Shown here piece by piece: positions 2,092-24,731 of a stretch of DNA of 42,340 bases. The translations under genes were made by a program, and so were the position numbers. Each line of letters opens with the position of its first letter. Within the stretch, counting starts at the first letter, position 1. Source of the stretch: a virus. The DNA lies in the IMG/VR virus record IMGVR_UViG_3300049020_000018, positions 1-42,340 of that record; one strand, written 5' to 3'. The notes beneath the pieces were generated by a model. That model was not told the origin of the DNA. It saw nothing but the letters and a program-made list of their open reading frames with translations, and did no database searches.

Positions 2092-2979
2092 ATGGAAACT
2101 ATCAAAATTGAAGATCGCGCTACCTTAATGCATGGTGATTGCTGTGAGCGAATTGCCGAAGTAGAATCAGAAAGCGTTCATTTATCTTTTTTCTCCCCGC
2201 CGTTTGCGGAGTTGTATGTCTATTCTGATGACTACCGAGACATGGGAAACTGCAAAAACAACGATGAGTTTTATAAGCATTTCAATTACCTGACCCCTGA
2301 GCTTCACCGGGTAATGATGCCGGGTCGGTTAGTTGGAATACATTGTATGTTCCTGCCGATCATGAAAGGTAAGGAGGGCTTCTTAGGTTTCCGAAACTTC
2401 CCTTATGGTATTCAACAATGCATGGAGAATGCTGGTTTTGTCCTTCATGGTCCTCCAACAACAATATGGAAAGATCCAGTAATTGAGATGCAGCGCACAA
2501 AAGCGATAGGATTACTCAACAAGCAAAAAGACAAAGATGCCACATTGAGCCGGACTGGAAACCCTGACTTTATTTATTGGTTCAGAAAGCTAGGCGATAA
2601 CCCGGTCCCGGTTAAGCATTCTTCTGTGGATCCAAAGAATGAAAACTATCTACCTGTGGACTTGTGGCAGAAATACGCCTCCCCTGTTTGGTATGATATT
2701 AACTATTCCGAAACCCTAAACAAAGAAGGTAAGGAAGATGACGACGTAAAGCACATTGCGCCCCTTCAATTACAGACCATTGCTAGAGCGGTTCACTTAT
2801 ATACCAATCCAGGAGAGACGGTTTTTACGCCCTTTGGCGGCATCGGATCAGAGCCTTACCAATCACTTAAACTGAATCGAAACGCTATCGCTATTGAGCT
2901 AAAACAAAGCTATTTCGAGGTAATGGTAAAGAACTGCCGGAACGTACTACAGAAAAACTCACAACTCAGTTTAATATGA
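2092..2979 (+). CDS. DNA methyltransferase (N4-cytosine/N6-adenine type)
   Basis: The 295-residue protein has the catalytic motif IV SPPF at residues 35-38 and the AdoMet-binding motif I as FTPFGGIGS at about 245-253, near the C-terminus. This order is that of beta-class amino-methyltransferases. SPP(F/Y/W) is more typical of N4-cytosine enzymes, but the two chemistries cannot be told apart by eye. No restriction endonuclease is next to it, so it is best read as an orphan methylase that protects phage DNA or marks replication sites. It begins directly after the helicase stop and overlaps the next gene by four bases. Confidence 0.85.
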   Translation: METIKIEDRATLMHGDCCERIAEVESESVHLSFFSPPFAELYVYSDDYRDMGNCKNNDEFYKHFNYLTPELHRVMMPGRLVGIHCMFLPIMKGKEGFLGFRNFPYGIQQCMENAGFVLHGPPTTIWKDPVIEMQRTKAIGLLNKQKDKDATLSRTGNPDFIYWFRKLGDNPVPVKHSSVDPKNENYLPVDLWQKYASPVWYDINYSETLNKEGKEDDDVKHIAPLQLQTIARAVHLYTNPGETVFTPFGGIGSEPYQSLKLNRNAIAIELKQSYFEVMVKNCRNVLQKNSQLSLI

Positions 2980-3299
2980 AATGTAAGAATATGAGTCATA
3001 CCATTTTCGAGCGCAAGGTTCCTCGTAAATGGGTAAATAAAAAAACAGGCGAGACGAAGTTCCGTGTATACACAGAAAAAATATGTGTCGAATGTCGCCG
3101 GGAAAGGGAGCATAAAAACTCAAAGTATCGGCTGATGAAGAACATTCAAAAGCTATCAGTTTTAAATCCATTGGAAAAACAAATGTTAAAGGTCTTTCAT
3201 GAGGTTAACCCAGATTACATCCCAAGAGCTCAAATGAGGATCTTAAATAAGACCATTGAGAAGGTAGTGAGTGAACGTAAAAAGTATTACGCTATTTGA
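2976..3299 (+). CDS. Small basic protein with CxxC motif
   Basis: This 107-residue, lysine/arginine-rich protein starts in an ATGA overlap with the methyltransferase stop. A CVEC motif lies near residue 38, and the N-terminus has a further CK and a histidine, giving a possible incomplete zinc-binding site in the first 40 residues. The rest is predicted helical, with repeated basic patches. No family is recognised. Position between the methyltransferase and the replication protein suggests a nucleic-acid-binding accessory. Confidence 0.6.
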   Translation: MKCKNMSHTIFERKVPRKWVNKKTGETKFRVYTEKICVECRREREHKNSKYRLMKNIQKLSVLNPLEKQMLKVFHEVNPDYIPRAQMRILNKTIEKVVSERKKYYAI

Positions 3300-3304
3300 T
3301 CTAT

Positions 3305-4054
3305 ATGGCAAAGGAGCTTCCTTATTTCAAGTTTGATGCTGCAGAGTGGATCAGTGGTGAAATAACGCTGGAAGATCTCACAACCCAGGGAGTGTTTGTT
3401 AATATCTGCGCATACTATTGGTTCCGTTCGGGTAAGTTGACATTAACCGAAATCAAGCGAAGGGTTAAATGTAAACAAGCGGTTTTTGATCGGTTGGTCG
3501 AACAGAAATTAATAAAAGTTACTGATGATTGGATCGAAATTTCATTTCTGAAAGATCAATTTGATGAGCGCGGACACATTTCTGAGAAAAATTCTAAAAA
3601 CGGAAGTTTGGGAGGTGCCCCAAAAGGCAATAAAAACGCACAAAAAAACAACCCAAAACAACCCAAAACAACCAATATAGAAGAGAAGAGAAGAGAAGAG
3701 AAGAGAGAAGAACAGAATAGAAGAGAAGAGAAAAAAAAACAGCCGGTAACCGTCCCTTTTCAGGGACTCGTTTTGGAGGCTTGGAATGATTGGATGAAAT
3801 ACCGGACTGAGAAAAAAAAGACGTTAACGCCATCAACCATAAAAAGACAAATCCAATTCCTGGGGGGGCGCGGCGATCCTGAAATCATCGCTATTATAAA
3901 CAAATCAATTACGATGGGATGGGAAGGATTATTTGAACTTAAACCGCAAAACAATGGAACGAATGGAAATACGTACAACGGGCGACATACTACGGGAACG
4001 GTTCGACGAGCTGACGCCGTCATTGAAGAAGGAAAAGATTTTGGAAACTTTTAA
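3305..4054 (+). CDS. Replication initiation protein (Lin1244/Lin1753, DUF4373-like)
   Basis: The N-terminal 110 residues (PYFKFDAAEWISGEIT, then GVFVNICAYYW) match the winged-helix domain that opens many phage replisome-organiser proteins. A lysine/glutamate-rich linker follows, coded by an almost pure purine tract at 3676-3740 with repeated GAAGA units. The C-terminal part (EAWNDWMKYRTEK, then a run ending GWEGLFELK) matches the tail of such proteins, which recruits the helicase loader. The ATG at 3305 is preferred over a TTG at 3296. The next gene, a DnaC-like loader, overlaps its 3' end by about 100 bases, supporting a replisome-assembly job. Confidence 0.8.
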   Translation: MAKELPYFKFDAAEWISGEITLEDLTTQGVFVNICAYYWFRSGKLTLTEIKRRVKCKQAVFDRLVEQKLIKVTDDWIEISFLKDQFDERGHISEKNSKNGSLGGAPKGNKNAQKNNPKQPKTTNIEEKRREEKREEQNRREEKKKQPVTVPFQGLVLEAWNDWMKYRTEKKKTLTPSTIKRQIQFLGGRGDPEIIAIINKSITMGWEGLFELKPQNNGTNGNTYNGRHTTGTVRRADAVIEEGKDFGNF

Positions 4055-4757
4055 AGAGGTTGAACTGACTGCAGAAGAAACCGCCGAGGCACTTCGGAAG
4101 GGACGTGAGGAAAAATATTATGAACTGCAGCGCATAGCCTACAATGAAAAAATAAAAGCCCGTAAGCTATACCCGCAATTTTCCGCCGATCAACTGAGGT
4201 CGATTTATGAAACGTATTTTGAACTGGATGAAATCAATAGCCCTGTGGTAAATCAAATCTGCAGATACTTCGCTAATGATCCGGCTTTCGAAGGCGATCT
4301 GAATAAGGGGCTTTTCCTGATGGGCGGGGTTGGGGTTGGTAAAACAACGATTATGAAAATGTTCATCAAAAACCAGCGCTTTAGCTACCGCGTGGATTCA
4401 TGCAGGGATGTGGAGGCGAATTACTCAGCTTATGGTGATGATTACTTGCAGACAGTGTCCGTAAATCTACCTATTGCGGTGAACAGTGACCCATTCGGGC
4501 ATCAGGAAATAGGGTATTGCTTTGATGATCTAGGGACTGAAAGCGACGGTAAGCATTATGGAAAAGGGAAAAACGTGATGGCTGACGTTGTCCTGAATCG
4601 GTATGACAACAAACTGAATTACTGCAGCACTCACATTACTACCAACCTTTCCGCTGGTGAAATAAAGGCTCAGTACGGCAGCAGGGTAACGGATCGAATC
4701 CGGGAGATGTTTAACATTATCAAATTCCCTGGTGATGCTAAAAGCCGAAGGAAGTAA
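3954..4757 (+). CDS. DnaC-like helicase loader (AAA+ ATPase)
   Basis: The protein has a P-loop GGVGVGKTT and a Walker B-like stretch YCFDDLG, then ITTNLS and a conserved SRVTDRIREM, the typical order of DnaC/IstB-type helicase loaders. The N-terminal 90 residues are helical and charged and would contact the initiator or helicase. Starts are possible at TTG 3933, ATG 3954 or ATG 3963; I chose 3954 for its A-rich upstream context. It lies inside the end of the initiation-protein gene, so translation is probably coupled. No replicative helicase gene is seen, so it probably loads the host DnaB. Confidence 0.8.
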   Translation: MERMEIRTTGDILRERFDELTPSLKKEKILETFKEVELTAEETAEALRKGREEKYYELQRIAYNEKIKARKLYPQFSADQLRSIYETYFELDEINSPVVNQICRYFANDPAFEGDLNKGLFLMGGVGVGKTTIMKMFIKNQRFSYRVDSCRDVEANYSAYGDDYLQTVSVNLPIAVNSDPFGHQEIGYCFDDLGTESDGKHYGKGKNVMADVVLNRYDNKLNYCSTHITTNLSAGEIKAQYGSRVTDRIREMFNIIKFPGDAKSRRK

Positions 4758-4806
4758 CCTACCTGGCAATCTGAGAACGAATGGAGGACTAAACAGAAAT
4801 AATTTT

Positions 4807-5466
4807 ATGAAGCGATTTATTTTATCCTGGTTGTTGCATCACGCGAATAGATTCACAAAATCAGAATCTTTCTACGTCATCAAAGATCAAATACTTTCCA
4901 AATACGGCAAGCAGATCGGGTATGATATTCAGAAAATACCCGGCAAGATATGCAATTCATGTGGAGGTAAAGGACAGCACCCGAGGTATAGCAACACACC
5001 GCCGTATAAGATTTATGATTGGGCAGATTGTTATCATTGCTGGGGTGGATGGTATAAGTTTCCTAAATGGATATGCCTTGCACGAATTGAATTTGGTAAG
5101 TATACCTTTCATAAACCTTTGAAGCGAGAGGAGCGAATTAACAACCCATTTACAGCGGAGGAAATGGGATGGCAAGTATCTGAACGTCCAGTGATTCAAG
5201 GATACATTGAACACGAAAGAAGCCGATTCAGTCACTTTGCTTTTATGTTGATGTTCTTCATGTATAATCGCTCGATGTTTTGGGTTCTTTGGGATCAATA
5301 TAAGTGCGAACTACGGTGGAAATGGAACACACAAAAGCGCCGGTTAAAAGAACGGTTTACAACTTGGAATGGATTTGTACTTGAAAAGCCTCAACCTTTT
5401 ATTAATCACTGGTTTGACGCTAACGGTAACGCTATACCCCCACAGGATGACGATTTACCTTTTTGA
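4807..5466 (+). CDS. Zinc-ribbon protein, DnaJ-like CxxCxGxG motifs
   Basis: Two motifs, CNSCGGKG and CYHCWGGW, are about 27 residues apart and look like a DnaJ-type zinc-binding pair. A hydrophobic, aromatic-rich helix (FAFMLMFFMYN) occurs in the middle. The C-terminus is acidic (DDDLPF), like the tip by which single-strand-binding proteins contact partners, though it may be coincidence. The reading frame is open upstream to 4732, but the ATG at 4807 gives a protein starting MKRFILSWLL and avoids most overlap with the loader gene. Function unknown. Confidence 0.6.
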   Translation: MKRFILSWLLHHANRFTKSESFYVIKDQILSKYGKQIGYDIQKIPGKICNSCGGKGQHPRYSNTPPYKIYDWADCYHCWGGWYKFPKWICLARIEFGKYTFHKPLKREERINNPFTAEEMGWQVSERPVIQGYIEHERSRFSHFAFMLMFFMYNRSMFWVLWDQYKCELRWKWNTQKRRLKERFTTWNGFVLEKPQPFINHWFDANGNAIPPQDDDLPF

Positions 5467-6923: not shown

Positions 6924-7303
6924 AAATGGAAAAAGAACTTACAAAAGTCGCTGAACTTTGGGCCGATCAAATTATGAATGGTCGATGGGACAATGGGGAA
7001 CCCACGCATAACGTTTTAGGCTCACTATTGCGCGCATCCGCAGCCAAACCAACACAGGAACAAATTGATATATTTAAGCGGACGCTTATTGAAGAATGCG
7101 TTACCTCGTTTACATCGAAAGGACATGGAGTGAATTTAGGCGTTGACTACCAAGCCGACGCAGAGCTGATTAAATCCTGTGAGGCCGCCGGAATAAGCAC
7201 AGAATTACTTCCGGTAAAGTCATTTGTATTTGCCGGGCCCGGTAAGGTTAGCTACAAGTTTGGTTATGGTTCTCGCATCGTGGATATTAACGTCAAGGAA
7301 TAA
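6920..7303 (+). CDS. Hypothetical protein, last gene of the left plus-strand operon
   Basis: The 127-residue protein begins MKMEKELTKVAELWADQIM; starting at the second ATG (6926) is equally possible. The N-terminal half looks helical and the C-terminal half beta-rich (KSFVFAGPGKVSYKF). No domain is recognised. Its 3' end overlaps the convergent spanin-like gene by 11 bases, marking the border between early and late blocks. Confidence 0.6.
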   Translation: MKMEKELTKVAELWADQIMNGRWDNGEPTHNVLGSLLRASAAKPTQEQIDIFKRTLIEECVTSFTSKGHGVNLGVDYQADAELIKSCEAAGISTELLPVKSFVFAGPGKVSYKFGYGSRIVDINVKE

Positions 7304-17319: not shown

Positions 17320-17799
17320 ATGAAAGATATACCAGGATATGAATCATTTTATGCGGCCACTGAGGACGGTCGAATCTATTCAAAGCGAAGGAATAGGTAT
17401 TTAAACCCAAAAACAAAATCATGGTATTCTAATGTCCGGCTGTGTGACGGGTCAACACAAAAACCATTTAAGGTTCATCAGTTAATTGCCTTGTGTTTTT
17501 TGCCAAACCCATTAAATAGGAATGAGGTAAACCATAAGAACGGTATAAAGGGGGATAACCGTGTTGATAATCTGGAATGGACAACCAGGAGAGAAAATAT
17601 TAAACACTCGTATTCAACGTTAAATCACAAAAGAACTTGCGGCGTTGATCATCCAAAATACCGCCCGTCCCTTGACGTATCAACGGGGATATTTTATGAC
17701 TCCATGGCAGAGGCAGCGAAAGCTAAGAACGTATCTAGGCATAATATCAAGAATGATGCTAGACGGAATGGATTAAGGTATAATATTATCTTCGTATAA
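17320..17799 (+). CDS. Free-standing HNH homing endonuclease (NUMOD4-type)
   Basis: The N-terminus IPGYESFYAATEDGRIYS is the NUMOD4 repeat, and the HNH core reads VHQLIALCFLPNP, then VNHKNGIKGDNRVDNLEW, with the metal-binding His and the asparagine-rich loop. A helix-turn-helix-like C-terminus (MAEAAKAKNVSRHNIK) gives DNA specificity. ATG at 17320 is chosen over TTG 17305. It is on the plus strand between two minus-strand genes and overlaps the end of the glycosyltransferase gene by 27 bases. It is a mobile gene that invades phage genomes by cutting uninvaded relatives. Confidence 0.85.
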   Translation: MKDIPGYESFYAATEDGRIYSKRRNRYLNPKTKSWYSNVRLCDGSTQKPFKVHQLIALCFLPNPLNRNEVNHKNGIKGDNRVDNLEWTTRRENIKHSYSTLNHKRTCGVDHPKYRPSLDVSTGIFYDSMAEAAKAKNVSRHNIKNDARRNGLRYNIIFV

Positions 17800-18546
17800 A
17801 GGTAGGTTGTATTTGTTATCACAAGCTATTAAGGTTTTTTGATAGAACTTGCAAAAATACCCTTCCTTAGCATTGCGTAAATCTTCAATGATAGTAGATG
17901 TTTCTATATTACGGCGGGCGGTTGAGTTCCTTATTTTTTTAGAATAATCCCTCCTATACCATGAAAAATGATCCATGATTAAATCAGTTCGCTCTACCCT
18001 GGAGTTGATATTTAAGCTTCTGGTGGGGTCGATTCTGATTTGTCCGTTTATCCAGGCGAAAGGATAGCTTTTATTAAACGCGTGGGCGATGGTGGGAGTG
18101 AGTTTATGAATGAATGGCACTAAGGTAGTGTCTAACCCAATCGTTAAACCTGGGCTTTTAAAATATGTCTGGCACTGGCAGACTAAACCCATAAGATCAG
18201 GGTTTTTAAACTTCTCTTTTTCTTTTAAAAACGGTTCTGGTTCGTAAAACTCATCGGCGTCCATCATTAGAAAGTGCGTGTACCCTAGTTCGCGAGCAAT
18301 CCCTAGTCCGTAATTTCTTTTATTTGTCTCATTCTCGCGTGGTGTTAGCTTTAAATTAGGTTCGTATTGATAAACGCCCTCCACTTTACAGGCTTTTAAA
18401 AGAAATGGAGGTTCTGAAATCTCCCCGAAGTTGGAAGTTTCAGAGTACACAACAATAACCCCATCCACCACTGGCTCAATGTTGTCGATTGATTTAAAAA
18501 GCAATTCCCAATCATCCCAAACCACGAATACTGCGGCTAGTTTCAT
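17773..18546 (-). CDS. Glycosyltransferase (GT-A fold, family 2-like)
   Basis: The 257-residue protein starts MKLAAVFVVWDDW, has a nucleotide-sugar pocket and MMDADEFY near residue 94-101, whose DxD-like motif binds the metal and UDP-sugar. HFSWYRR and SKKIRNST near residue 200 resemble the acceptor side of beta-1,4-glucosyltransferase-like enzymes. No signal peptide or membrane helix, so it is cytoplasmic. It is the last gene of the glycan island, and its 3' end runs into the HNH gene. Confidence 0.75.
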   Translation of the reverse strand: MKLAAVFVVWDDWELLFKSIDNIEPVVDGVIVVYSETSNFGEISEPPFLLKACKVEGVYQYEPNLKLTPRENETNKRNYGLGIARELGYTHFLMMDADEFYEPEPFLKEKEKFKNPDLMGLVCQCQTYFKSPGLTIGLDTTLVPFIHKLTPTIAHAFNKSYPFAWINGQIRIDPTRSLNINSRVERTDLIMDHFSWYRRDYSKKIRNSTARRNIETSTIIEDLRNAKEGYFCKFYQKTLIACDNKYNLPLYEDNIIP

Positions 18547-18589
18547 TTAAAAATGTAAGATTTGATTTAAATTTGGCATAAAAATTTAT

Positions 18590-18597
18590 TAAGTTTG
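18590..18597 (+). promoter_or_regulatory. Perfect TAnnTTTG box before the candidate small RNA
   Basis: TAAGTTTG at 18590-18597 fits the Bacteroidota -7 consensus. TTTG words lie 14 and 25 bases upstream (18572, 18561), both off the preferred spacing of about 19-22. Transcription would start near 18602, at the base of the first hairpin. Confidence 0.4.
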
Positions 18598-18601
18598 CAT
18601 T

Positions 18602-18675
18602 GCACAATCGTCTCCTTCTATGATTGTGGGTTAAAAAGCCATAGAGAGCCGGGCCGTGGAAAAGCCCGGTTTTTC
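18602..18675 (+). ncRNA. Candidate phage small RNA with two hairpins
   Basis: CACAATC (18603-18609) pairs with GATTGTG (18622-18628) over a 12-base loop. An unpaired purine/T-rich linker follows. CCGGGC (18649-18654) then pairs with GCCCGG (18664-18669) over a nine-base loop and runs into TTTTTC, a good rho-independent terminator on the plus strand. A -7 box sits just upstream. No coding frame uses this terminator, because both neighbours are on the minus strand. A 70-75-nt small RNA, antisense to nothing obvious, is the simplest reading. Confidence 0.5.
18648..18675 (+). terminator. Rho-independent terminator of the small RNA
   Basis: A six-pair GC stem, CCGGGC/GCCCGG, is followed by TTTTTC on the plus strand; no T-run follows on the minus strand. 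It therefore works for plus-strand transcripts. Confidence 0.7.
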
Positions 18676-18961
18676 ATTTATTATCAAAGATGGCCGTCAT
18701 CCCGCAACAGGAAAAACAAAAAACTATCCACATATACCACGGATAGCCGGAAAGTAAAATCAAGTACATGATAGTTCCGTGAGCGCTACTCATGCAGAAT
18801 TTACAATCGAATAGGGGCTTATTAACCCATTCTGGCAAGTGCGCCCTCATCCAGTTCCCCGGTCTTCCAAAGATCTCACCGTCTTTAAATGTGAACTCAA
18901 ATCCCCAAATCCAGCCTACCGCAATAAAAGCAGCGGTAATAAACCTGATGTAATATTCCAT
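18674..18961 (-). CDS. Membrane protein, DUF1360-like
   Basis: Two or three membrane helices are visible: FITAAFIAVGWIWGF, then GTIMYLILLSGYPWYMWIVFCF. Between them, KPLFDCKFCMSSAHG gives the CxxC-M-S motif of DUF1360-like proteins. The role of that family is unknown. The gene ends one base before the next start region of the small RNA terminator and its ATG abuts the stop of the glycosyltransferase-like gene upstream. Confidence 0.6.
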   Translation of the reverse strand: MEYYIRFITAAFIAVGWIWGFEFTFKDGEIFGRPGNWMRAHLPEWVNKPLFDCKFCMSSAHGTIMYLILLSGYPWYMWIVFCFSCCGMTAIFDNK

Positions 18962-19575
18962 TATACAATTCCTTTTAAATGAAAGACTGCGCCTGGCTCC
19001 GGTTCCCCAAACACTTCCCCAATGTAGGCCATGTGTGATCCTCCTCGCTGGTATTTTAAACCGATGCGTTGCGCTATAATCGATCCGCAGGTCATGTCGT
19101 GGCGATGATTCGACCAGTCACCTTTAAAGCATCCTGCCTTCGCTGAAGCTTTCCATTGACTGAAAAAGGACATGGCAATAGGCGAGGTTTTATCTAATCC
19201 CAAAAGCCCCGCGGAGAACATGGTATAATTTTCTTCCGGTTGAAGTTGGAAATATTGCCTGGTGTGTTGGTTGCACCAGTCGTTAACATAATGCCCAGCC
19301 TCCTCTATAAAATAACCGTCCTCCTGAATAATCTTTTCAATCCTTGATATGTCCCCCATAAGGTACATCGAAGCGTCGGCCCACAGAACAATGTTATCTT
19401 TTTCAAATCCCCTTTCTATCGCATGGATCTTAAATTCATACGGGCTATCCTGATGAGTAGGGCTTCCTATCTGGCTGTATTCGGTGAACATTAAATTAGG
19501 AACGTCACCTAAAGATTCTTGCAGTCTTTTTTGGCCTGCGCGGTATTGACGAGTTGCGAAGTTTACGACGATCAT
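18961..19575 (-). CDS. Glycosyltransferase-like protein
   Basis: ATG at 19575 gives a protein starting MIVVNFATRQYRAGQ and is fixed by an ATGA overlap with the small membrane gene upstream. VLWADASMYLMGD is the place of a DxD-like motif in GT-A enzymes (here D-A-S-M), and the following TMFSAGLLGLDK, then DWSNHRHDM, resemble GT8/capsule-locus transferases. The key metal site is not certain, so this is a probable rather than sure transferase. It belongs to the glycan island. Confidence 0.55.
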   Translation of the reverse strand: MIVVNFATRQYRAGQKRLQESLGDVPNLMFTEYSQIGSPTHQDSPYEFKIHAIERGFEKDNIVLWADASMYLMGDISRIEKIIQEDGYFIEEAGHYVNDWCNQHTRQYFQLQPEENYTMFSAGLLGLDKTSPIAMSFFSQWKASAKAGCFKGDWSNHRHDMTCGSIIAQRIGLKYQRGGSHMAYIGEVFGEPEPGAVFHLKGIV

Positions 19576-19742
19576 TTTAAAATATCGTCTACGTTTATTG
19601 AGATGATAAAAACAGCCACTTCGCTGAATATCCAAAACGAAGCCACAACTCCTCTGGTTGTTTCATTCCATTCAGCTACATTAAAGCTGGCCGAAGCAAC
19701 TGATCCGGCAATAAAAAAAATGGTAACTATATATTTATTCAC
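19572..19742 (-). pseudogene. 3' part of a small membrane-protein gene cut by the IS
   Basis: From a GTG inside the IS inverted repeat (19742), a 56-residue frame runs to a TGA at 19572 that overlaps the next ATG. Codons from 19721 down are the original gene: FFIAGSVASASFNVAEWN, then a second membrane helix VVASFWIFSEVAVFIIS. The first eight codons (MNKYIVTI) come from the IS end. The GTG may restore expression of a trimmed protein with an IS-encoded start. Confidence 0.75.
19714..19721. repeat. Target site duplication, left copy
   Basis: AAAAAAAT directly before the left inverted repeat; identical to 21547-21554 after the right one. Eight bases is the usual duplication length for IS1595-family elements. 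Confidence 0.9.
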
Positions 19743-19745
19743 CCT
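19722..19745 (+). repeat. IS left terminal inverted repeat
   Basis: Begins GGTAACTATATA and ends ACCCT. It differs from the right repeat only at positions 13 and 19. It also supplies the GTG start of the disrupted gene's 3' part. Confidence 0.9.
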
Positions 19746-19755
19746 AATCGGGTTT

Positions 19756-19777
19756 AAAGAAAGCCGGTCATTCCGGC
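19756..19777 (-). terminator. Terminator at the end of the IS gene set
   Basis: On the minus strand GCCGG-AATGA-CCGGC (19763-19777) is followed by TTTCTTT (19756-19762). It lies between the last IS gene (ending at 19790) and the left IS end, so it limits read-through into the phage operon. Confidence 0.7.
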
Positions 19778-19789
19778 AATCCTGTTTTG

Positions 19790-20026
19790 TTAAACTTCTT
19801 TCTGTGAGATCAGGCGCAACGCATCGTTAAACGCATCGGTTTCCCCGCTCTCCAGATCGTCACGTAATTCCAGGAGAATCTTTGAAAGCTTTTGCATTTC
19901 TTCATCGCTCAATGATCTCCCATCTGTACCGTTCAATTTCTTATTGAACGCATCCTTTGACATACCCATTTTGATCGCTAATAGGTTCCGGTTAAGCTTC
20001 CATTTGTCAATCACTTCTTTAAGCAT
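19790..20026 (-). CDS. IS passenger: helix-turn-helix-like protein (78 aa)
   Basis: Residues 8-32 (WKLNRNLLAIKMGMSKDAFNKKL, shown here in part) read as a Cro/C1-type helix-turn-helix: LLAIKMGMSKDAF is helix-turn-helix with the typical A-x-x-x-G pattern. The C-terminal half is helical and acidic. It overlaps the transposase stop by 16 bases, so it is co-translated and probably tunes transposase expression or target choice. Confidence 0.65.
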   Translation of the reverse strand: MLKEVIDKWKLNRNLLAIKMGMSKDAFNKKLNGTDGRSLSDEEMQKLSKILLELRDDLESGETDAFNDALRLISQKEV

Positions 20027-20943
20027 AATTGTTTGTAGGTTAAATGTGAATTGATGTTGTTCAGCATCCGATCAAACCGGAAATTTTCGGACATGCCGCG
20101 AGTGTTGTATCTGAATACAAATTCATCAATGTACTTCTGCAAATGCTTATCGGACATGGAGTGATAGATGCCGATAACACCACGCTTTAACAGGCTCCAA
20201 AAGCCCTCAATCGTGTTTGTGTGAACACCGTCTTTCGAGTATTCACCGTCACCGTGGTTAATGTATTGATGCTTGAAAATGCGAGATAAGCCACGATAAC
20301 CCCACCATTCGTCAGTGTGGATAGTTGACCCAAACTCAACGTTGTTAACGATGAACGGGCGAAGGCTGTAGCCTTGTGTGCTAATTACTTTAATAGCTCT
20401 TAATTCGCCACCGCGCTCGATAATGCCCAGCACTGGCGTTTTAGTCTTAGCTGATCGGCCTTGCGTTCCTTCGGTCTGCTTTGACTTGTGTTTGTTAGAT
20501 TCTTTGCCACCGATAAACGTTTCGTCTGCTTCAATGATGCCTGTAAGCTTTTCGGTCGGGCTTACCATTAACGTGTGGCGGACACGATGGAGCATAAACC
20601 AAGCGGTCTTTTGCGTAACTCCGAGGTCGCGGTGTAATTGAAGGCTGGATATACCTTTCTTATGCGAAGTAATTAGGTAGATGGCAGCAAACCACTTTTG
20701 CAGGCTGATTTTAGAATCTTCGAAGATAGTCCCAACCTTAACCGAGAATTGACGCTGGCATTTAGCGCACTTATAACGCTTGCCATCGGTGTACTTAAAC
20801 ACGTGATCGTGGCGGCATTCTTTATACGGGCAAACGATCTTACCATTCCAGCGGATCAGTTCAAGATAATCACGGCAAACCTGCTCATCCTTAAAGTAAG
20901 TGAGCAGGTCTACAAGGGTTTTGAATTTGCGTAATGCTACCAT
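20011..20943 (-). CDS. IS1595-family transposase
   Basis: An N-terminal zinc ribbon (CPYKEC at 38-43, CAKC at 59-62) and helix-turn-helix (LHRDLGVTQKTAWFMLHR) precede an ISXO2-type DDE domain: Asp140 in IEADETFIGG, Asp211 in HTDEWWGY, and Asn243/Glu246 in HTNTIEGFWSLLK. The DDN/E set is complete and the 310-residue length is normal, so the enzyme is probably active. It overlaps both neighbouring passenger genes by a few bases. Confidence 0.92.
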   Translation of the reverse strand: MVALRKFKTLVDLLTYFKDEQVCRDYLELIRWNGKIVCPYKECRHDHVFKYTDGKRYKCAKCQRQFSVKVGTIFEDSKISLQKWFAAIYLITSHKKGISSLQLHRDLGVTQKTAWFMLHRVRHTLMVSPTEKLTGIIEADETFIGGKESNKHKSKQTEGTQGRSAKTKTPVLGIIERGGELRAIKVISTQGYSLRPFIVNNVEFGSTIHTDEWWGYRGLSRIFKHQYINHGDGEYSKDGVHTNTIEGFWSLLKRGVIGIYHSMSDKHLQKYIDEFVFRYNTRGMSENFRFDRMLNNINSHLTYKQLCLKK

Positions 20944-21146
20944 GTTGAAGCGTATAAAAGCCTTGCCTGATCACTGTTCACCGCTTCAACGGTTTGAAGA
21001 TTATCCAGCCCCTTAATGGCGTGAATATCCAGCGTTACGACCATAATGCCGCACTCGTCAGTGCCAACCCAGTAGCATTTAGTAGCGGGTTTTTCAACGC
21101 GCTCAAATGATGCCTTGATGGCTTTCAATTCTTTGTAGGTGGTCAT
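20937..21146 (-). CDS. IS passenger: hypothetical protein (about 69 aa)
   Basis: The frame is open from 21161, but the ATG at 21146 is preceded by GAGAGAAG and gives MTTYKELKAIKASF. The rest is alpha/beta with two cysteines (KCYWVGTDECG). It overlaps the transposase start by seven bases. No family is recognised; the place inside the IS suggests a regulator, an antitoxin-like factor or a host-adaptation passenger. Confidence 0.6.
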   Translation of the reverse strand: MTTYKELKAIKASFERVEKPATKCYWVGTDECGIMVVTLDIHAIKGLDNLQTVEAVNSDQARLLYASTW

Positions 21147-21168
21147 AATATCTTCTCTCATGGCTGGA

Positions 21169-21408
21169 TTATTTAGCGTTCATTAAATAGTTAGCAATCA
21201 CATCGTAAGACTTATTGCTCATTACCACTTTGTGGTTTTGGCGTTCATTGAAAATCATTCCTTCTGCAAGGTGGTATTGACCTTCTGACAGATATACACT
21301 GAATTGACAAACCATCTTTTTACCATACTTCTCTACAAACATCAAAGCTTGGATATGGCTGATTTCGTTCTTTGCTGGTTTCAGGTCTTTTGCGTTCTGG
21401 ATTTTCAT
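21169..21408 (-). CDS. IS passenger: hypothetical protein (79 aa)
   Basis: First gene after the IS promoter, starting MKIQNAKDLKPAKNE. It is a small alpha/beta protein with a hydrophobic core (IQALMFVEKYG, MVCQFSVYLS) and no recognised motif. It ends about 20 bases before the next passenger gene. Nothing like it occurs elsewhere in the window. Confidence 0.6.
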   Translation of the reverse strand: MKIQNAKDLKPAKNEISHIQALMFVEKYGKKMVCQFSVYLSEGQYHLAEGMIFNERQNHKVVMSNKSYDVIANYLMNAK

Positions 21409-21431
21409 AACCGTATTGTTTAATTATGAAG

Positions 21432-21462
21432 TAAAGATAATCCATTTGGATTTCATACGCAA
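21432..21462 (-). promoter_or_regulatory. Promoter of the IS gene set
   Basis: On the minus strand TTG (21460-21462) is followed after 20 bases by TATCTTTA (21432-21439), one mismatch from TAnnTTTG. The first IS gene starts about 23 bases downstream. Spacing is that of a strong Bacteroidota promoter. Confidence 0.6.
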
Positions 21463-21522
21463 GCTTTTTAAGTAAAATATTTTCATAATTCTTTAAAAAC
21501 CCTGTTTTTAGCCTGATTTATA

Positions 21523-21546
21523 AGGGTAAATAAGTATATAGTTACC
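21523..21546 (-). repeat. IS right terminal inverted repeat
   Basis: Reverse complement begins GGTAACTATATA and ends ACCCT; 22 of 24 positions match the left repeat. Confidence 0.9.
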
Positions 21547-21554
21547 AAAAAAAT
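21547..21554. repeat. Target site duplication, right copy
   Basis: AAAAAAAT directly after the right inverted repeat, identical to the left copy at 19714-19721. Confidence 0.9.
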
Positions 21555-21601
21555 CATCCCAACGATAATAGTTAGGAAAAAGAATGCGATTATTTGTTTT
21601 A

Positions 21602-22204
21602 TCATCTTGCGTAGATTAAGTTTTCAGGAGACGTATAAATCAACTTGAACCCTTCAAGGTATTTTTCGTATTCTGTTTTAAGGTTCTCTTTCCCGTTCCA
21701 CTCGATCACGATTAAACTGGTTTTGCTTAGATCCATTTCGGGAAGGATGTCCAATTCCGACCCTTCAACATCTAAAGAAATCATATCAAATTCCTTTATC
21801 CTGAGTCGGTTTAAGAATGTCTTCCACCGGAAAGTCGTTACCTCTACCGGATCATATCTAACAGACTTTTCAAATCTCTGTTTCTCCTGAGAATGAAAAG
21901 TGCTAACCAGGCCAACATCGGAAGCAGAACATAACGGCCCGGATTCTTGAAGCATCGCCTTGCCGTTGTGGCTACTGATCGCGTAGGGGTAAATGTAGAA
22001 TCCTTTGTGACCATTATAAAGAGCTTTTAATTTTTCGTATGCCTTAGGGGACGGCTCCACCATCACGCCTTTCCAGTTACGCTCCGCGAGTGCGCGAACG
22101 TTAGAAAAGGTTACCCCGTCATTCTCTCCGATGGATAAGAATGTTCCGGTAAAGTCTTTGAAGTAATCCAGTATCACCGATTCTTCATTTGATTGACTAT
22201 ACAT
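21602..22204 (-). CDS. FkbM-family methyltransferase
   Basis: ATG at 22204 directly after the stop of the glycosyltransferase upstream gives about 200 residues. FLSIGENDGVTFSN is the AdoMet-binding loop, WKGVMVEPSPKAYE follows with the acidic end of strand 2, and FDMISLDVEGSELDIL is the FkbM hallmark. Such enzymes O-methylate sugars in glycan and lipid pathways. In this operon it probably caps or trims the glycan made by the neighbouring transferases. Its stop overlaps the start of the IS-disrupted membrane gene. Confidence 0.85.
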   Translation of the reverse strand: MYSQSNEESVILDYFKDFTGTFLSIGENDGVTFSNVRALAERNWKGVMVEPSPKAYEKLKALYNGHKGFYIYPYAISSHNGKAMLQESGPLCSASDVGLVSTFHSQEKQRFEKSVRYDPVEVTTFRWKTFLNRLRIKEFDMISLDVEGSELDILPEMDLSKTSLIVIEWNGKENLKTEYEKYLEGFKLIYTSPENLIYAR

Positions 22205-22205
22205 T

Positions 22206-22871
22206 TTATTTTGCTTTATTTTCGTTTGGATAAGTCCACTTGCCATTATTGAAAGTTGGTAAAAACGCACTTGTTATCTTATCGGCTTCACTTGTTTTTG
22301 AACTGTGGTTGTATTGGTGAATTATAGCTTCTGAATATTCCTCATCCGTACATTGATTTAACACCTTTTCAAACCACTCCCAATCCTCACCATAATTAGA
22401 ATCAGGAAACGGTACACTTTGAGCTATCACAGTTTTTACAGGGCAAATGTGCCACGGGGGTCTATCAATTGTTCCCGGCTTTGCCTGACTGTTAAACGTG
22501 TTATAGAATCGCATCCTAACCAAGGTCCAAAAATTATCCATCTTGGAAATGTTATTGAATGTTAAAACGTCGCAATCGCTTTGTGCTAGTCTTACCAAGA
22601 CCTCTACGTAATTCGGGGCAATCGTTTCGTCATCATCCAGGAAACACAAATACTTCCCTGTCGCTCTTTTAACGAGTGCTTCCCGTTTCTTACCAATGCT
22701 TAACCCCCCGTCCAGAAATCTTTTAGAGTCATCAACCAACACTTCTATTTCTCCAAGAGTTGGATGAACGGTATCCATATACGCAATCTGCCTGTGGACT
22801 TCATTGAAAAGCCGGGTGAACATTTCGCCCCGTTCTGGGATGGTTGGAATTAGTATCGAGAGTATAATCAT
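22206..22871 (-). CDS. Glycosyltransferase family 2
   Basis: Starts MIILSILIPTIPERG, the first strand of a GT-A fold, with EVLVDDS for the base-binding acid and KYLCFLDDDETIAP for the metal-binding DxD. GEDWEWFEKV near residue 160 is in the place of the catalytic ED motif. Four-base ATGA overlap with the gene upstream. Cytoplasmic, soluble. The acceptor is unknown. Confidence 0.85.
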   Translation of the reverse strand: MIILSILIPTIPERGEMFTRLFNEVHRQIAYMDTVHPTLGEIEVLVDDSKRFLDGGLSIGKKREALVKRATGKYLCFLDDDETIAPNYVEVLVRLAQSDCDVLTFNNISKMDNFWTLVRMRFYNTFNSQAKPGTIDRPPWHICPVKTVIAQSVPFPDSNYGEDWEWFEKVLNQCTDEEYSEAIIHQYNHSSKTSEADKITSAFLPTFNNGKWTYPNENKAK

Positions 22872-23452
22872 CTTCTTTGTTGTCTGCGTTCGTGGAATTG
22901 CGATCTTTTAGGGTTGCAGTCATACCAATACATATCGTCATTAATATGGACTTCCGTTTTCAATAATCCTAAGTCGTGAATCTTCTTAGACCATTGGTAA
23001 TCTTCCTGCTGCCAAATGTCCGGGAATTTAACATACCTTACTTTCTCCCTTTTCATCACGGTAATGTGATTGGGCCAGCGGTAATGATGCCCTTTGTCAG
23101 AGTAGTACTTAGAACCTAATCTGATCGTGAAGTTCTCTCTATTTGCCCCGTTAGTAGTCATGTATCCTTTAAATGTAATTACATCCGGTTCGGATTCCAT
23201 TGCCTTTAAAATGGATGCAACGTAGTGGCTAGGTATTACGTCATCATCATCTATGAAGACAAAGTAATCAGAGGATGATTGAGCAAGTAATAAGTTTCTT
23301 TTAGTCCCTGTGGGCATAGCTTTCCCTGCGTCGTTAAAGTGAACCGATACCTGGTCTTTGTGCTTGTTCACCTGAGGCATTAAGATATTATTCAGCCTTC
23401 TTAACTTGTCGGCCCGTTCAGGGAGTGTGCAAATGAGAATAGAAAGATTCAT
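22868..23452 (-). CDS. Glycosyltransferase family 2
   Basis: Starts MNLSILICTLPERADKL and has YFVFIDDDDVIP as the DxD region; QQEDYQWSKKIH is the likely catalytic ED segment. It is a clear paralogue of the enzyme encoded just downstream (shared LPERxD/IPERGE start). The basic C-terminal tail (ERRQQRR) may hold it near membrane or nucleic acid. Overlaps both neighbours by four bases. Confidence 0.85.
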   Translation of the reverse strand: MNLSILICTLPERADKLRRLNNILMPQVNKHKDQVSVHFNDAGKAMPTGTKRNLLLAQSSSDYFVFIDDDDVIPSHYVASILKAMESEPDVITFKGYMTTNGANRENFTIRLGSKYYSDKGHHYRWPNHITVMKREKVRYVKFPDIWQQEDYQWSKKIHDLGLLKTEVHINDDMYWYDCNPKRSQFHERRQQRR

Positions 23453-24081
23453 ATCGGAAACCCCTGACGGGATCGTTTCATAAATACTTTTTTACCTTGA
23501 TCCCAATTCGCTGCGCTTCTTGTGTACGTCTCATCGTTCTGCGCCTTGCCATTACTTGGATGTTCGTGAGGGAATTTTAAATGAGGTGCATACTTTATCG
23601 CGTTGATCCGTTTGCAAGTCTCGAATAAGTCGCAATCAACCCACATCGATTTATACTCCGGGTGCCACATATACCCTAACTTCTCGTATAGTGCCCGGTT
23701 CATTATTGGGATGGTCACTATCCCGACCTCGAATTTTTGCAACTCGTCATCCACCTTTAACAGCATTGGTTCTGTAACTCCCTCAAATTCCTTCTCGATT
23801 AATGACGCCCAATTATCAGGGCATTTGAAGTCGTCGGATAGGTAAAGTAAAATATCCCCGGCTGCATGTTTGGCTGCGTGGTTAGTGGCTTCGACGACAC
23901 TAGAATGATTGTCAATTATTACAACCTCAGCAAAGTGCATTTCGTATTTTCTAGCTTCTTTATCTGAGTTATCTAAACTCAGAATATGTTCAAACTCACC
24001 CGCTGCGCGTTCATGCCAATACCTTGCTGTCGCATACGCTTTCTGTGGGCGTCCCCGGCTTGGATGAATTAAACTAATCAT
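23449..24081 (-). CDS. Glycosyltransferase-like protein (GT-A)
   Basis: MISLIHPSRGRPQKA opens a GT-A fold; ILSLDNSD gives the nucleotide-binding acid and LLYLSDDFKCP the DxD-like site. The MWVDCDLFETCKRIN segment is in the place of the acceptor-side acid. It lies in an overlapping string of four glycan genes. A third paralogue of the same broad family. Confidence 0.75.
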   Translation of the reverse strand: MISLIHPSRGRPQKAYATARYWHERAAGEFEHILSLDNSDKEARKYEMHFAEVVIIDNHSSVVEATNHAAKHAAGDILLYLSDDFKCPDNWASLIEKEFEGVTEPMLLKVDDELQKFEVGIVTIPIMNRALYEKLGYMWHPEYKSMWVDCDLFETCKRINAIKYAPHLKFPHEHPSNGKAQNDETYTRSAANWDQGKKVFMKRSRQGFPI

Positions 24082-24731
24082 GGTATGTAAGAAATTTTAT
24101 AGCCTTTCATCTGGAAAAACAAAGACGGACAGCGTTCTAAAATGAATGGACAAAGTGGATAATCCTCAAGTCCTAACTTTGCCTTGACTGACTTTAAATC
24201 TGCCCCGCGTGCCATCTTCCCATAGCCCGAGGGTTGTAGCATTTTAGCGTTCAATTCTTCGTCTGTCATGATTAATTCCATTGCAGGAGTCAAAAAATTG
24301 GTAACGTAGTCCTTGTAAATCTCCGATTTCGCGGAAAAATGATTTTGATAAATTGGATTCTTCGCTTCAGGCGGTCTTTTTAGACCTAATTTCTGCCACA
24401 AAAGATCAATTGTTGGAATAAATTCCTTGTGCCATTGGTTCGCCATCGCCAGCATCTGGTGTCTGGAGCTATTTCGCGTTAAAGAAAGAACTTGATAGTC
24501 GGATTTTAATACTTCTTCCGTCACCGGGTGGACTCTCCGCACCTTTTGAGATAATTTCCAGGAGCAAACCGATAATTTTTCCCCCTCGTAAGCGTCAACA
24601 ATCCTCTTAATAGGATCATTTTCAAAGAATATGGTCAGATTTTCATTAAAGTAAGGGACGGCGAACGGGTAAAGGTGTGCGCGCTGATCTTCTTTGTAAA
24701 GAATCTGGAAAAGAGTCACGATCTCAGCCAT
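24078..24731 (-). CDS. Glycan-island conserved protein of unknown function
   Basis: The 217-residue protein has LYPFAVPYFNENLTIFFEN at the N-terminus, an SVCSWKL segment, and LCPFILERCPSLFF near the end. I recall similar proteins next to FkbM and GT2 genes in other Bacteroidota phages and in host glycan loci, but know no tested function. It overlaps its neighbours by four bases downstream and 16 upstream. Confidence 0.6.
   Translation of the reverse strand: MAEIVTLFQILYKEDQRAHLYPFAVPYFNENLTIFFENDPIKRIVDAYEGEKLSVCSWKLSQKVRRVHPVTEEVLKSDYQVLSLTRNSSRHQMLAMANQWHKEFIPTIDLLWQKLGLKRPPEAKNPIYQNHFSAKSEIYKDYVTNFLTPAMELIMTDEELNAKMLQPSGYGKMARGADLKSVKAKLGLEDYPLCPFILERCPSLFFQMKGYKISYIP

Follow-up and report, generated by a model that had tools for sequence, protein, structure and literature searches.

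An IS1595 element of a phage-rich lineage with a clade-specific HTH gene, and transposase-less methyltransferase cassettes that share its ends

Introduction

DDE insertion sequences are regarded as uncommon in phages, with temperate phages having acquired most of them from the chromosomes of their hosts; transposases are reported to be infrequent in virulent phages and more frequent in temperate phages (PMC8136500). An insertion sequence lying among the genes of a phage raises the question of whether it is a chance acquisition from the host or belongs to a lineage that resides in phages. The window analyzed here, that is, the whole stretch of DNA of 42,340 bp, is a virus record, and a preliminary description of it had presented one locus as a recent, complete IS1595 insertion in a phage genome, either a fresh event or a tolerated passenger. 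Considering all the evidence below, we find it likely that positions 19722-21546 represent an autonomous, cargo-carrying IS1595 transposon from a mainly tailed-phage lineage with Bacteroidota-like hosts, which would also move cassettes in trans.

Results

An IS1595 element with passenger genes splits a small phage gene

The element and the gene that it interrupts comprise the following features, given in window coordinates.

19722-21546, minus strand (as the phage operon): whole element, IS1595 family with passenger genes, 1825 bp; from terminal inverted repeats, target-site duplication and transposase
19714-19721, no strand: target-site duplication, left copy AAAAAAAT; exact 8/8 repeat
21547-21554, no strand: target-site duplication, right copy AAAAAAAT; exact 8/8 repeat
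19722-19745, plus strand: terminal inverted repeat, left, GGTAACTATATATTTATTCACCCT; 22/24 match to the right repeat
21523-21546, minus strand: terminal inverted repeat, right, GGTAACTATATACTTATTTACCCT as the minus-strand reading; 22/24 match to the left repeat
20011-20943, minus strand: transposase, 310 aa, zinc ribbon and DDE domain; from Pfam, NCBIfam and alignment
19790-20026, minus strand: HTH protein, 78 aa (tentative fold); from clade-wide presence, an AlphaFold2 model and PDB fold neighbors with weak E-values
20937-21161, minus strand: passenger ORF, 74 aa, without homologue; from the ORF, Pfam, PHROG, NCBIfam and the compared loci
21169-21408, minus strand: passenger ORF, 79 aa, without homologue; from the ORF, Pfam, PHROG, NCBIfam and the compared loci
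19763-19777, minus strand: terminator-like hairpin GCCGG-aatga-CCGGC followed by a T-rich tail, between the HTH gene and the left end; pattern match only
21555-21605, minus strand: interrupted 66-aa gene, 5' part, whose ATG overlaps the stop of the FkbM methyltransferase gene (ATGA); from flank joining
19572-19721, minus strand: interrupted 66-aa gene, 3' part, whose stop overlaps the ATG of the next gene at 19575 (ATGA); from flank joining

The 24-bp inverted repeats with 22 matches, the exact 8-bp duplication and the complete DDE transposase of the preliminary description were all recovered, and its attribution to a phage is borne out by terminase, portal, head protease and tape-measure genes in the window. 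The duplicated octamer occurs only twice on the plus strand of the whole window. The transposase matches DDE_Tnp_IS1595 (PF12762, 1.5e-46) and Zn_ribbon_IS1595 (PF12760, 1.7e-9) in Pfam and, above the cutoff, the IS1595 model NF033547 in NCBIfam (7.2e-67), with residues D140, D211 and E246 invariant in an alignment of 12 relatives. The ISXO2-like DDE domain with a zinc-ribbon N-terminus, the 8-bp target-site duplication and the imperfect inverted repeats starting with GG are all traits of the IS1595 family. By its ends and size only, the element is a putative member of the ISPna2 subgroup of this family.

The family, ends and duplication of the complete insertion therefore stand as described, while three further proteins of 78, 74 and 79 aa had been overlooked. 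Both passengers (74 and 79 aa) are placed upstream of the transposase gene, are not methyltransferases and gave no meaningful match in Pfam, PHROG or NCBIfam and no homologue among the compared loci. The terminator attributed to the element agrees with the hairpin found by pattern match, whereas the promoter attributed to it did not hold up, promoter-like sites showing no excess over shuffled sequences (6 versus 5.1 ± 2.2). As for the age of the insertion, the exact duplication and the intact ORFs make a recent event plausible, a reading that carries no date.

Rejoining the flanks restored an intact, membrane-protein-like ORF of 66 aa with ATGA overlaps with both neighbors, so the element splits an apparently real small gene in a tight operon. 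This gene is dispensable, as had been proposed, since it is missing along with the element from two syntenic relatives, one in which the two neighbor genes are directly adjacent (L325) and one in which 277 bp of other sequence lies between them (L324). In the surrounding region (17773-24731), the portal gene is separated from the head-protease gene by genes that include glycosyltransferase-like and FkbM methyltransferase ones, an unusual content for a late operon.

The same junctions bear on the possibility that reads of a host insertion sequence were collapsed into a phage contig during assembly. Such an artefact is most improbable, given that the exact duplication is made of target sequence, that joining the flanks restores the ORF and that the GC content of the element (0.419) is near that of the phage (0.427). 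Moreover, independent insertions with the same ends and exact 8-bp duplications recur at other sites in other phage contigs, which also makes an artefact unlikely.

The element belongs to a phage-rich clade

In a tree of 208 transposases, the viral clade members grouped at support 99; in a further, careful tree, all HTH-bearing transposases tested (n = 12) formed a single clade with support 99/98. Eleven of these came from diverse tailed-phage contigs and one from a Chitinophagales chromosome; hallmarks found on member contigs include TerL as well as portal, GroEL, DnaB, DNA transfer protein, phage polymerase and ligase. Relatives of the window transposase on viral contigs showed 93, 74, 70, 68, 65, 64, 62, 62, 61 and 60% identity. 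Among the matches listed in the first scans, which included 396 Bacteroidota genomes, the best genome matches reached 54-57%; the best plasmid matches reached 46-48% and the best isolated-phage match 41% (INPHARED). Neither a close relative of the element nor a match to the HTH protein was found among the isolated phages of INPHARED.

A profile search for the HTH protein in 797 Flavobacteriales and Chitinophagales genomes returned one true member, located in the core chromosome of a Chitinophagales genome (L418 35-1773, equivalent to G855 C24:179102-180840). This 62% relative carries the HTH gene, a 133-aa passenger and an exact 8-bp duplication (CTTACTTT), and its GC content is 0.395 versus 0.50 in the surroundings. 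A clade exclusive to phages is ruled out by this copy; the lineage is phage-rich rather than phage-exclusive, and Chitinophagales are plausible hosts. The end pattern was absent from the 396 Bacteroidota genomes, where the density in viral contigs would lead one to expect about one copy (a rough estimate), so this absence is too weak to serve as proof of phage restriction.

The chromosomal member also speaks for another account, in which an ordinary host insertion sequence jumped into the phage by chance, to be lost again, and the phage-rich pattern reflects a deeper search of IMG/VR than of environmental hosts. IS1595 elements are indeed common in Bacteroidota, being present in 79 of the 396 genomes. 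Set against this are the 11 HTH-clade members from diverse phages, the lack of any genome relative above 57% among the first-scan matches listed, a strong HTH match in just one of the 797 genomes searched from Flavobacteriales and Chitinophagales, and the strong purifying selection seen, as presented below, when copies from unrelated phages are compared. We therefore regard a chance host insertion as unlikely and favor residence in a mainly phage-borne lineage.

A small HTH gene accompanies the transposase throughout the clade

The first 16 bp of the 78-aa HTH gene are shared with the 3' end of the transposase gene. The gene directly follows the transposase gene in every member of the clade and is absent from the other IS1595 loci compared, and matches to its profile were confined to the clade among several hundred compared loci. 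AlphaFold2 modeled the protein with five helices (mean pLDDT 81), and the nearest PDB folds were mostly of the repressor-type HTH, including TP901-1 CI, a phage 186 regulator and the lambda repressor. Since all E-values exceeded 0.3, the modeled XRE/lambda-repressor-like HTH fold is a tentative assignment; the protein is likely a regulator.

Two further arrangements were observed. A relative of the HTH protein (51%) is encoded in phage contigs (L347-L349, around 7001-7213), with no transposase or ends found nearby. At another locus (L231 4611-6144), the transposase gene is deleted while the HTH gene is intact and the duplication exact, an intermediate between autonomous and non-autonomous forms.

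Cargo is exchanged between conserved transposase and HTH genes

The closest copy of the element (L164, contig G008), with a 93% identical transposase, lies in a tailed phage with portal, capsid and tape-measure genes, and no detectable common protein was found between this phage and the window phage among 28 tested. The cores of the two elements are 83% identical, and their transposase and HTH genes have dN/dS values of 0.043 and 0.033, respectively. A comparison of copies from unrelated phages thus shows both genes to be under strong purifying selection. In place of the passenger segment (~20944-21411), the closest copy carries two unrelated genes encoding 97 and 75 aa. IS1595-family elements with passenger genes are termed 'transporter IS' (tIS; Siguier et al. 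2009), as quoted in PMC11891212. The window element shows this trait, with passengers between its ends that would be dispensable for transposition, judging from their replacement in the 93% relative.

Other cargo includes N6/N4 methyltransferases (L165 and L168), a PAPS reductase-like gene (L167) and giant proteins (L172 10215-14546, L173 10190-13588 and L176 9517-13782). The three giants combine unrelated N-terminal repeat arrays with a related helicase and a related Methyltransf_8-type part. In L167, L170 and L176, the ends are paired and the duplication does not match. An IS1595 element outside the HTH clade was also seen in a viral contig (L174 8908-11339, duplication ATTGTTTA), with cargo that by eye consists of a Dam-type methyltransferase-like and a nuclease-like protein.

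Transposase-less cassettes carry mostly DNA methyltransferase genes

Scanning viral contigs for the element ends alone revealed units of 0.3-1.5 kb in other phages that have the same ends and no transposase. The window element is autonomous and not such a cassette. All 25 pairs of ends were at least 17/24 similar, so the duplications come close to an independent test of these pairs. An exact 8/8 duplication flanked 16 of the 25 paired elements and was missing in the other nine, versus 2 of 600 cross pairs, in which the left and right flanks were taken from different elements. Among the cassettes, exact 8-bp duplications that differ in sequence were present in 8 of 14, and the inverted ends match each other and those of transposase-bearing elements at up to 24/24. 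The clearest example (L405 3619-4151, contig G417) is a 533-bp cassette with 24/24 ends, the duplication CCATTTAA and a single Dam-like gene of 158 aa. Furthermore, one phage region (L372, contig G419) contains two separate cassettes, one at 2507-3063 with the duplication TAAAAACA and a 166-aa methyltransferase-like gene, and the other at 3965-4959 with ATACAAAA and a PAPS-reductase-like gene.

DNA methyltransferase Pfam matches were obtained for 9 of the 14 distinct cassettes and cover the C5, N6/N4, D12, Dam and N6_Mtase types, with weaker EcoRI-type and Cons_hypoth95 matches. The remaining cassettes encode PAPS-reductase-like proteins (two), a radical-SAM-like protein (one), a protein with a DPPY motif only (L377) or an unassigned product (one). 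N6_N4_Mtase matches were found in 2 of 124 flanking ORFs, a tally of the 25 commonest families in which the true methyltransferase background may exceed 2; the enrichment in cassettes gave p < 1e-6 even with a flank background of 8. All 10 cassettes with strand-concordant neighbors had the same orientation as these neighbors (two-sided p = 0.002), which selection for expression from the phage operon would predict. In two cassette searches, isolated phages gave partial methyltransferase-gene matches only and no whole cassette.

Phage mosaicism driven by recombination is well known (PMC8136500), and some pairs lacking a target duplication (L375, L385, L392, L399 and G423) would fit methyltransferase genes that phages exchange by homologous or illegitimate recombination, the shared ends being regulatory sequences. 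Such an origin would not lead one to expect inverted ends matching at up to 24/24 and shared with transposase-bearing elements, nor exact and differing duplications around 8 of 14 cassettes when cross pairs yield 2 of 600, and we hold it to be quite improbable. The shared ends and duplications instead suggest that the cassettes are non-autonomous and probably moved in trans.

Discussion

In the mechanism that we propose, the transposase would recognize the GGTAACTATATA (GGTAAC) ends and insert the element into A/T-rich gaps, either between small phage genes or within them, with a stagger of 8 bp, an insertion that may be tolerated where the element genes run in the direction of the phage operon. 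The HTH protein could regulate in the manner of a repressor, adjusting transposition or coordinating it with the phage cycle. To judge from the shared ends, the transposase would also work in trans on the short transposase-less cassettes, typically with one gene each and mostly DNA methyltransferases, in cells that contain two phages at once, or a phage together with a host copy. Cargo would be retained when useful to the phage, for example when it modifies DNA against restriction, and the family may serve as a vehicle carrying genes for DNA modification and other accessory functions from one phage to an unrelated one with the same host. The chances seem about even that these parts amount to a two-part phage system, in which the transposase comes from HTH-bearing IS1595 elements and each cassette brings one DNA-modification (anti-restriction) gene, allowing unrelated phages to swap methyltransferases.

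The initial view of a fresh event or tolerated passenger was right in that the insertion into the phage is real, and it missed a cargo-carrying clade that recurs in unrelated phages. A fresh accident is too narrow a reading because the clade recurs in phages, is under purifying selection and has relatives without a transposase whose cargo consists mostly of genes for DNA modification. A phage-recurrent lineage with these features and with exchangeable cargo changes the picture of DDE insertion sequences as rare pickups from the host.

The ISPna2-like members of IS1595 that carry passengers (the 'transporter IS' of Siguier et al. 2009, cited in PMC11891212) resemble the window element in their zinc ribbon and ISXO2-like DDE domain, GGNAACTATATA-type ends and 8-bp duplication, as well as in the passengers themselves, among which are regulators in some cases, e.g., ISNha5. 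The window clade differs from the ISPna2-like elements by its clade-specific HTH gene overlapping the transposase gene, its mainly phage residence, its exchangeable phage-type cargo and the transposase-less cassettes with the same ends. These cassettes are comparable to MITEs and other non-autonomous IS derivatives (PMC10969869), which are short, lack a transposase, have the ends of an autonomous partner as well as duplications and are presumed to be mobilized in trans. Unlike MITEs, however, each cassette holds a complete gene, mostly for a DNA methyltransferase, and is co-directional within a phage operon. As compact single-gene units in phage genomes, they also recall the integron gene cassettes of phages (PMC9892861), by analogy only, since they have DDE transposon ends and target duplications rather than attC sites and an integrase.

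In the Bacteroides fragilis group, disparate phages have been described as swapping methyltransferases of several classes in a modular fashion (PMC10333322); exchange was inferred there without a transposon mechanism being named, and the term 'insertion sequence' is not in the text. The cassettes seen here come from phages other than those Bacteroides phages and offer a concrete, testable candidate mechanism for methyltransferase swapping between unrelated phages. A literature search that covered few subscription papers yielded no description of phage cassettes of the IS1595 type with methyltransferase genes.

Two further observations concern the content and surroundings of the cassettes. Matches to DnaB-type helicase genes were obtained for 6 of the 124 ORFs flanking cassettes, and cassettes may favor replication modules. 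In one cassette (L397 3813-5221), a PD-(D/E)XK nuclease gene lies beside an N6/N4 methyltransferase gene, possibly forming a mobile restriction-modification pair.
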